In this document: positions 11,629 through 13,368 of the stretch, in pieces | How positions within the stretch are numbered: the stretch's first letter is position 1 | Layout: each line of letters starts with the position of its first letter | Assembly: GCA_027365105.1 (NCBI GenBank) | Contig: DAHXNZ010000007.1 | Location: forward strand, 1 to 64,000 | DNA from: Thermoplasmata archaeon | GTDB lineage: Archaea > Thermoplasmatota > Thermoplasmata > Lutacidiplasmatales > UBA184 | Direction: 5' to 3' | DNA: 64,000 nt | The notes under the pieces: generated by a model | Database searches by the model: none | Told to the model about the DNA's origin: nothing | What the model saw: only the letters and a program-made list of their open reading frames with translations | Position numbers and translations under genes: made by a program

Positions 11629-13368
11629 ATGCCCCTCCACCCTGCCAACCTGCCGCTGGCCGAGCGGACCCGCCCCGGCAAGCTCGGCGACCTGGTGGGA
11701 AACCCCCGGGCCCGGGCGCAGCTCATCGCTTTCGGCGAGAGCTGGGCGCGATCCCGGACCCCCCCCCCCCAGCGGGCCGCCCTGCTCTCCGGCCCGCCGG
11801 GGGTCGGGAAAACCTCGAGCGCGTGGGCCCTGGCCCAGCAGTTCGGGTGGGACCTGGTCGAAATGAACGCGTCCGATGCCCGGAATGAAGCGGCGATCGA
11901 CGAGGTCGCCGGTCGGGCCTCCCGTACCCACCCGCTGACGGCCGGACCGGTCGACCCCCACCGGCACCGGGTCCTGATCCTGCTGGACGAAGCCGACTGT
12001 CTCACCGGCCGCCCGGCGGAGGAGCGGGCCCGGGGCCCCCCGCCCCTCTCGCTCCGGGAGTTCTTGCGGGGCCGGTACGGCTCGATCGAGGATCTGAACC
12101 GTTCGTGGGGGCTCGGCGAACCCGAGGCACCGCGACCGTTTCCCCGGTGGGAGTCGGTCCCGCAGTCGGTGGGGGCGGCAGCCTGGACCCGGCATCCGGC
12201 CGCGCAGGCCGACCTCCGGGAATTCGGCTCTCGCGCCCGGCCCAGGGACCTCACCGATCGCGGGGGGCTGGGCGCGATCCAACGGCTGGTCCGGGAGACC
12301 CTCCAGCCGGTGATCCTGACCGTCAACAGCGACCAGGATCTGCTTCGATCCTCTCCGGCCTTGCGTCGATCGGTCGTCCGGATCCTCTTCGGCCCGCTCC
12401 TGCCCGGCGAGATGCGGGCGGCGCTCGGGCGGATCGCCCGAGGCGAGGGAATCCCGCTCCCCCCGCAGGGCTTGGAGGCGCTCGTCGAGCGGGCCCAAGG
12501 CGACCTCCGGGCGGGCATCAACGATCTCGAAGCGGTCGCTCGATCCCCCGCGCCGGCCGCCGGGGCGCCTCCTCTGCTGGGTCGTCGGGACCAGGCGGGG
12601 GACATGGAGGCCCTCCTCCGGGAGTCGCTGACCTCGGCCCGTTTCTATCGGGCCGTCGAGGTCCGGGAACGGACCGACTCGACCCCGGACGACCTGGTGC
12701 CCTGGGTCGAGGAGAACCTGCCGCGGGAAGCGTCGGATCCGGAGCACGGTCTTGCCGCATTCCAGATGCTGTCCGAAGCCGACCGATGCCTTCAGCGCGC
12801 CCGACGGTACCGTACGTACGGCCTGTGGAGCTACGCCTCCGAGATCCTGACAGGCGGGGTCGGGACCGCCCTCCGCGACGCGCCGGCCCCCCGGACCGGG
12901 CCTCTCCGGTTCCCCCAGTATCTGGGCGAGATGGGGCGCAGCCGGGCGAGTCGGGCCACCCGGGATGCGGTGGCCGCCAAGATCGGGGCCTTCTGCCATG
13001 TTTCCCGACGCAAGGCCCGGGATGACTTTCTCCCCCTCCTGGACTCGCTCTTCGATCGACCGGACGGTCCGCCCGGGCGCCTCCCGATCTCGGCCCTCGG
13101 GCTGACCCCCAGCGAGGTCGGCTACCTCGCGCGGCTGCCCCCCGATTCCGAGGAGATCGCCCGGCTGTTCGAGACCGTCCCGGCGACCGAGCCCCCGCTT
13201 CCGGTCGGCCGGGCGGACGGCGCGCCGGTCGAGGACCGGGTCGACACGGCGCCGGGGCGGACGACGGCGTCGGTGCCGCCCCCTCCCCCCCCGTCCGCCG
13301 GAGGTCCGGAAGCCTCCCGCAAGAGAGTCCAGCGAAGCCTCGGCGAGTTCACGGAGGGCCACCGGTGA
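11629..13368 (+). CDS. rfcL: Replication factor C large subunit with an internal insertion
   Basis: A 579-residue archaeal clamp-loader large subunit; with RfcS it opens and loads PCNA onto primed DNA. Walker A (GPPGVGKTS, about 55-63), Walker B (LILLDEAD, about 116-123), the sensor-1 region (ILTVNSD, about 229-235) and GDLRAGINDLEAV are all present. The extreme C-terminus carries a PIP box (QRSLGEF) for PCNA. About 82 extra residues (roughly 128-209) lie between Walker B and DRGGLGAIQRL, where other archaeal RfcL have only a few. That insertion contains RYGSIEDLNRSWG, which I do not know from clamp loaders. It overlaps dph6 as GTGA, giving a two-gene operon. Confidence 0.93.
   Translation: MPLHPANLPLAERTRPGKLGDLVGNPRARAQLIAFGESWARSRTPPPQRAALLSGPPGVGKTSSAWALAQQFGWDLVEMNASDARNEAAIDEVAGRASRTHPLTAGPVDPHRHRVLILLDEADCLTGRPAEERARGPPPLSLREFLRGRYGSIEDLNRSWGLGEPEAPRPFPRWESVPQSVGAAAWTRHPAAQADLREFGSRARPRDLTDRGGLGAIQRLVRETLQPVILTVNSDQDLLRSSPALRRSVVRILFGPLLPGEMRAALGRIARGEGIPLPPQGLEALVERAQGDLRAGINDLEAVARSPAPAAGAPPLLGRRDQAGDMEALLRESLTSARFYRAVEVRERTDSTPDDLVPWVEENLPREASDPEHGLAAFQMLSEADRCLQRARRYRTYGLWSYASEILTGGVGTALRDAPAPRTGPLRFPQYLGEMGRSRASRATRDAVAAKIGAFCHVSRRKARDDFLPLLDSLFDRPDGPPGRLPISALGLTPSEVGYLARLPPDSEEIARLFETVPATEPPLPVGRADGAPVEDRVDTAPGRTTASVPPPPPPSAGGPEASRKRVQRSLGEFTEGHR

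Follow-up and report, generated by a model that had tools for sequence, protein, structure and literature searches.

A clamp loader large subunit insertion resembling subdomain H of GH42 glycosidases in one family of Thermoplasmata

The rfcL gene of the window and its insertion

The window, a stretch of 64,000 nucleotides from a Thermoplasmata archaeon, encodes a 579-residue protein that is assigned, from its sequence and predicted structure, to RfcL, the clamp loader large subunit, with PCNA loading as its putative role. The RfcL model NF003229 matched the protein with E 5.9e-79 and 265.7 bits, just below the 280-bit cut-off of that model, and a Foldseek search with the predicted structure returned yeast and human RFC1 as the best matches (E about 1e-12). 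Walker A and B, DRGG, the lid, the collar, and the PIP-like tail are common to the window protein and ordinary archaeal RfcL (NF003229 and relatives), whereas the models of the latter break at one site: nine NCBIfam RfcL models matched the window protein in two pieces and left an insertion uncovered. The features of the gene are as follows.

11629-13368, forward strand: rfcL, replication factor C large subunit, 579 aa; open reading frame from the ATG at 11629, ending at 13368
11791-11814, forward strand: Walker A GPPGVGKT, residues 55-62; mostly invariant in alignment A1
11980-11997, forward strand: Walker B LLDEAD, residues 118-123; D120 and E121 invariant in A1
12010-12255, forward strand: family-specific insertion, residues 128-209, from Walker B to DRGG
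12010-12045, forward strand: N-terminal flexible linker of the insertion, residues 128-139; low pLDDT over 127-135 and low identity (0.38)
12046-12234, forward strand: conserved core of the insertion, residues 140-202, a helical module resembling GH42 subdomain H by profile matches and Foldseek
12052-12108, forward strand: predicted helix-turn-helix, residues 142-150 and 153-160, LREFLRGRYGSIEDLNRSW; AF2 models and HMM matches to GH42
12196-12237, forward strand: predicted third helix, residues 190-203, with the invariant Asp195; AF2 models and alignment A1
12256-12267, forward strand: DRGG, residues 210-213, conserved in A1; R211 aligned with yeast Rfc1 Arg434 by phmmer
13330-13350, forward strand: C-terminal PIP-like motif QRSLGEF, residues 568-574, preceded by a tail that is variable and probably disordered; in A1, Q568 and L571 are invariant

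An earlier note on this DNA had described about 82 extra residues between Walker B (LDEADCLTG) and DRGGLGAIQRL at positions 12010-12256. The insertion is confirmed as real, at residues 128-209 (12010-12255), and those coordinates were correct to within one base. Both of its described parts, FLRGRYGSIEDLNRSWG and the following Trp-containing stretch PFPRWESV, were found there. The expectation that ordinary archaeal RfcL has only a few residues at this site was borne out by an alignment of relatives, from whose ordinary RfcL proteins the segment was absent; L035, for example (DEADNIHGNVDRGG), has almost nothing there.

Downstream, a diphthamide synthase-like gene (PF01902; 13365-14090) has a GTG start overlapping the rfcL stop by 4 bp, which suggests translational coupling. 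Other neighbors between 8697 and 16125 encode an MR/MLE enolase-superfamily enzyme, an AhpC/TSA peroxiredoxin, an OsmC-like protein, a methyltransferase, and a MarC family membrane protein.

Distribution, origin, and constraint of the insertion

A protein search of 61 relatives separated the genus of the window, whose proteins matched through the insertion, from other families, which matched in two pieces (11-128 and about 205-510). Using a profile of 28 inserts (A2), we found the insertion in 87 of the 106 genomes of the order, distributed over seven genera of one Thermoplasmata family, with a single copy in each genome and the reading frame open in every case; it is therefore no assembly accident. 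This family consists of uncultured archaea, and every RfcL found in it carried the insertion at the same site. Across 392 genomes of the phylum (E<=0.01), the insertion was restricted to the same family, except for one match of 30 residues (E 0.009), which fell in a short, stop-containing frame. It was not found in the sampled genomes of the sister families f2 and f3. Family genomes lacking the insertion, where re-searched, yielded no RfcL, giving just RfcS-strength matches or none. Four assemblies of family members that are more than 90% complete (G061, G071, G073, and G095) had no detected RfcL.

In a tree of RfcL calculated with the insertion removed, the family formed one clade (support 100) with f2 and f3 outside, and both deep clades within it, {g1, g28, g29} and {g24-g27}, carried the insertion. 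The simplest reading of this tree is one gain in the family stem; alternatively, the insertion may have been lost in f2 and f3. Beyond what the earlier note had described, the insertion is family-wide, most simply of single origin, and ends beside the arginine that corresponds to a minor-groove residue, as detailed below. Among named records, the nearest one carrying this protein was a "Thermoplasmata archaeon" MAG with 80% identity, and a literature search covering few subscription journals found no publication on such an RfcL insertion.

Other families of the order differ at the same position. Sister family f2 has a loop of ~24 residues, and L071 (genome G038, family f3) has a Lys-rich insertion of ~85 residues at the same post-Walker-B site; the site has the look of a hot spot for insertions within the order. 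The f3 insertion was rejected as a relative of the one described here because it showed no similarity (score -2.2).

The insert core had a pairwise identity of 0.54; the values were 0.62-0.65 for the flanking AAA+ regions, 0.50-0.51 for the lid and collar, 0.38-0.41 for the insert linkers, and 0.22 for the RfcL tail. Eight residues of the insertion were invariant among the first 28 sequences. For the one pair compared, the window and its nearest relative, dN/dS by the NG86 method was the same, 0.089, for the insert core and for the AAA+ part preceding the insertion, against 0.33 for the tail, and purifying selection on the insertion is, in this pair, as strong as that on the AAA+ core. In GC and GC3 the insertion differed little from the gene, and it is accordingly either old or ameliorated.

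Similarity to subdomain H of GH42 glycosidases

Similarity to GH42 beta-galactosidases reached significance with family profiles only and not with the single sequence P0001, which had no match in Pfam; the insertion of the window alone gave GH42 4uni as its best phmmer match in the PDB, with E 0.81. When profile A2 was compared with the PDB, the first 11 matches were GH42 enzymes or beta-agarases (best E 9e-4), as were the first 12 with the more diverse insert profile A3 (1kwg, E 7.5e-5). Scanned singly, 22 of 28 and 22 of 31 inserts matched Pfam GH42 (best 3.1e-5), and no other family recurred; one insert, that of L048, scored above the curated Pfam cut-off (23.7 against 21 bits). A search of 7.3 Gb of plasmids with the consensus insert found beta-galactosidases wherever a match among those listed was annotated, and three unannotated matches that were inspected were ORFs of 664-711 aa with an NE motif; a phage collection gave weak matches alone (E 0.2 to 9). 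Two further comparisons used a GH42 set that had been collected with the insert consensus, so that their scores are biased upwards: hhalign aligned the insertion with GH42 at a probability of 96.7 and a score of 65.8 (maximum of 24.7 in 60 column-permuted controls), and a GH42 HMM scored all 50 family inserts at 10.6-31.9 bits (best of 2000 shuffled inserts, 4.3). The PDB and Pfam tests are free of this bias. At the level of sequence, these results support a GH42 match that is more than chance.

The significant sequence match spans 37-48 residues only and covers about positions 149-196 of the 376-position GH42 HMM, with the catalytic residues E136 and E295 outside it. Colinear motifs with close spacing continue over about 60 residues, and the third helix is aligned by spacing more than by residues. 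AF2 predicted the insertion as a helix (142-150), a turn, a second helix (153-160), a loop with Trp174, and a third helix (190-203); the mean pLDDT was about 80-95 per block over most of the insertion in two models, and the N-terminal linker was disordered. When this predicted structure was compared with the PDB by Foldseek, all 50 listed matches were GH42, agarase, glucosyltransferase, or beta-amylase barrels, with GH42 first. The TM score of the predicted model against several GH42 chains was 0.5-0.59 over about 60 residues, with a best E of 0.088 and none passing E 0.001. As GH42 is among the PDB structures used for AF2 training, the agreement in fold is not a fully independent confirmation of the agreement in sequence.

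The part of GH42 that matches is subdomain H, which is helical, follows the catalytic acid/base as an insertion, and corresponds to about residues 158-192 of 1kwg (A4-beta-Gal). The insertion, in its predicted form, and subdomain H share the helix-turn-helix FR-[FW]-L-x-x-RYG-[ST]-[IV]-x-x-LN-x-x-WG, followed by [YF]-x-x-[FW]-x-x-[VI] and a helix with Asp, and each of them follows a parallel beta-strand and lies next to an active site where subunits meet. The resemblance to a GH42 helix-turn segment described in the earlier note was accordingly upheld by the PDB and Pfam profile matches and by the fold predicted for the insertion, and the matching part extends beyond a helix-turn to subdomain H. 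Taking profile matches and predicted fold together, the similarity of the insertion to GH42 subdomain H is well supported.

The insertion differs from GH42 in having no barrel and no catalytic Glu and in lying inside a replication ATPase, and a role as a GH42 glycoside hydrolase was rejected in the absence of a TIM barrel and of the two catalytic Glu residues. Subdomain H of GH42 acts at a protein-protein interface (in BiBga42A, Trp-200 lies at the helix tip), and its Trp reaches the active site of the neighboring subunit, contacting the galactose site there. According to the coordinates of the PDB matches of A2, the sugar-contacting Trp of GH42 is the W of the FW pair after WGT; this Trp was absent from all 31 aligned inserts. 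Since the scaffold residues are kept and the FW Trp is missing, the scaffold appears to be retained and the ligand contact gone.

A scan of 103 family genomes with the GH42 HMM revealed no GH42 enzyme. It matched RfcL inserts in three genomes of genus g24 (HMM positions 149-196), and the other three matches fell at HMM positions 7-64 in another protein. An in-genome donor was also considered and rejected, the genome of the window having no GH42.

Position in the clamp loader, possible origin, and role

The alignment by phmmer placed D210 of the window protein at Rfc1 433, so that R211 corresponds to Arg434, the side chain of which enters the DNA minor groove in yeast Rfc1 (PMC9359705, PMC9293004). 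By this correspondence, the module is suspended with the catalytic Walker B on one side and, on the other, the residue of helix alpha-5 that is the first to contact DNA. In L046-L049 (genus g24), DEG(A/G) takes the place of DRGG, with Glu (GDEG) at the position equivalent to Rfc1 R434.

Elements added to AAA+ subunits are known from other clamp loaders. The Rfc5 plug (E-plug) of eukaryotic RFC lies in the DNA chamber, where it blocks and grips DNA (PMC8893722); it is a beta-hairpin of subunit E with basic tip residues, whereas the archaeal insertion is predicted to be helical and follows Walker B in subunit A. The upper loop of Rad24 in Rad24-RFC likewise projects into the DNA chamber and controls DNA; it serves 9-1-1 loading, and its likeness to the insertion involves no established shared sequence position or fold.

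On these grounds, we propose that the insertion folds on its own as a small helical module of ~65 residues without catalytic activity. Subdomain H of a GH42-type glycosidase would be its source, or the two would have a common ancestor, and the module would have been acquired once, in the stem of the archaeal family. In the A subunit of the clamp loader, flexible linkers would hold it in place, with Walker B before it and the DNA-binding arginine after it. By analogy with the two chamber elements just described, it may supplement the AAA+ spiral on its inner face, on a DNA-facing or inter-subunit surface, where contact with DNA or the neighboring RfcS could tune DNA entry and retention or adjust how DNA binding is coupled to ATP hydrolysis. 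The regulatory role at the DNA chamber or between subunits is thus an inferred part of the proposal, and the reading as a whole has, in our judgment, an even chance of being correct. Clamp loaders are among the most conserved replication machines, and movement of sub-domain pieces between unrelated folds is rarely seen. If the proposed origin is true, a 60-residue fragment would have been reused as a module in a single event, with its scaffold retained and its ligand contact lost, and a sub-domain fragment would have been reused across unrelated folds in core replication machinery. If the proposed function is true, the module would correspond, in archaea, to the chamber elements that eukaryotic RFC variants have added.

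The strongest alternative concerns function and fits either origin: the module may point away from DNA and recruit PCNA, primase, SSB, or a polymerase. A flexible low-pLDDT linker and conserved W, F, and P residues would suit a docking element, as would the near-neutral charge of the core (net -1 to +5, weakly charged, no typical DNA-binding patch) and the precedent of subdomain H at a protein-protein interface, whereas the anchor lies on the DNA-facing side, adjoining the equivalent of Rfc1 R434. We regard docking as a realistic possibility, somewhat short of even, and as nearly as likely as the DNA-facing or inter-subunit role.

The resemblance itself could have arisen by convergence of an unrelated helical hairpin on the same packing (amphipathic helix, RYG turn, and LNxxW cap), in which case the insertion would still be a clamp-loader interaction element. 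The strong match is indeed short (23-48 residues) and fades beyond the helix-turn-helix and the Y/F..W/F..V strip, and the genomes searched contained no donor. However, GH42 and its barrel relatives were the sole recurrent matches in Pfam (24736 families), the PDB, and the 7.3 Gb of plasmids; the similarity is present in both deep clades of the family, and, beyond the helix-turn-helix, a second motif keeps a close spacing and the third helix is colinear. Convergence is therefore rather unlikely, and common ancestry with GH42 subdomain H is, on the sequence and predicted-fold evidence, the likely explanation. A bolder version of the ancestry reading, which we consider doubtful, is that a barrel fragment captured once has become an essential DNA-facing control element that partly takes over DNA recognition, in which the Arg-to-Glu change of g24 would find a place.

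That the insertion is a tolerated spacer, a chance sequence of little function in a loop-expansion hot spot, is improbable: the site does tolerate insertions, because f2 and f3 carry others there, but every RfcL found in the family kept this one, with its invariant residues, a dN/dS equal to that of the AAA+ core, and a confidently predicted fold. Inteins account for some of the insertions in AAA+ replication genes of archaea; a mini-intein, a homing element, or an assembly chimera can nevertheless be dismissed here, as the family-wide alignment already refutes them, an intein needs at least about 130 residues with splicing blocks, against 82 here, Pfam gave no intein match, the insertion occupies the same place in 87 genomes as a single copy with no further copies in the genome, and its GC content agrees with that of the gene.
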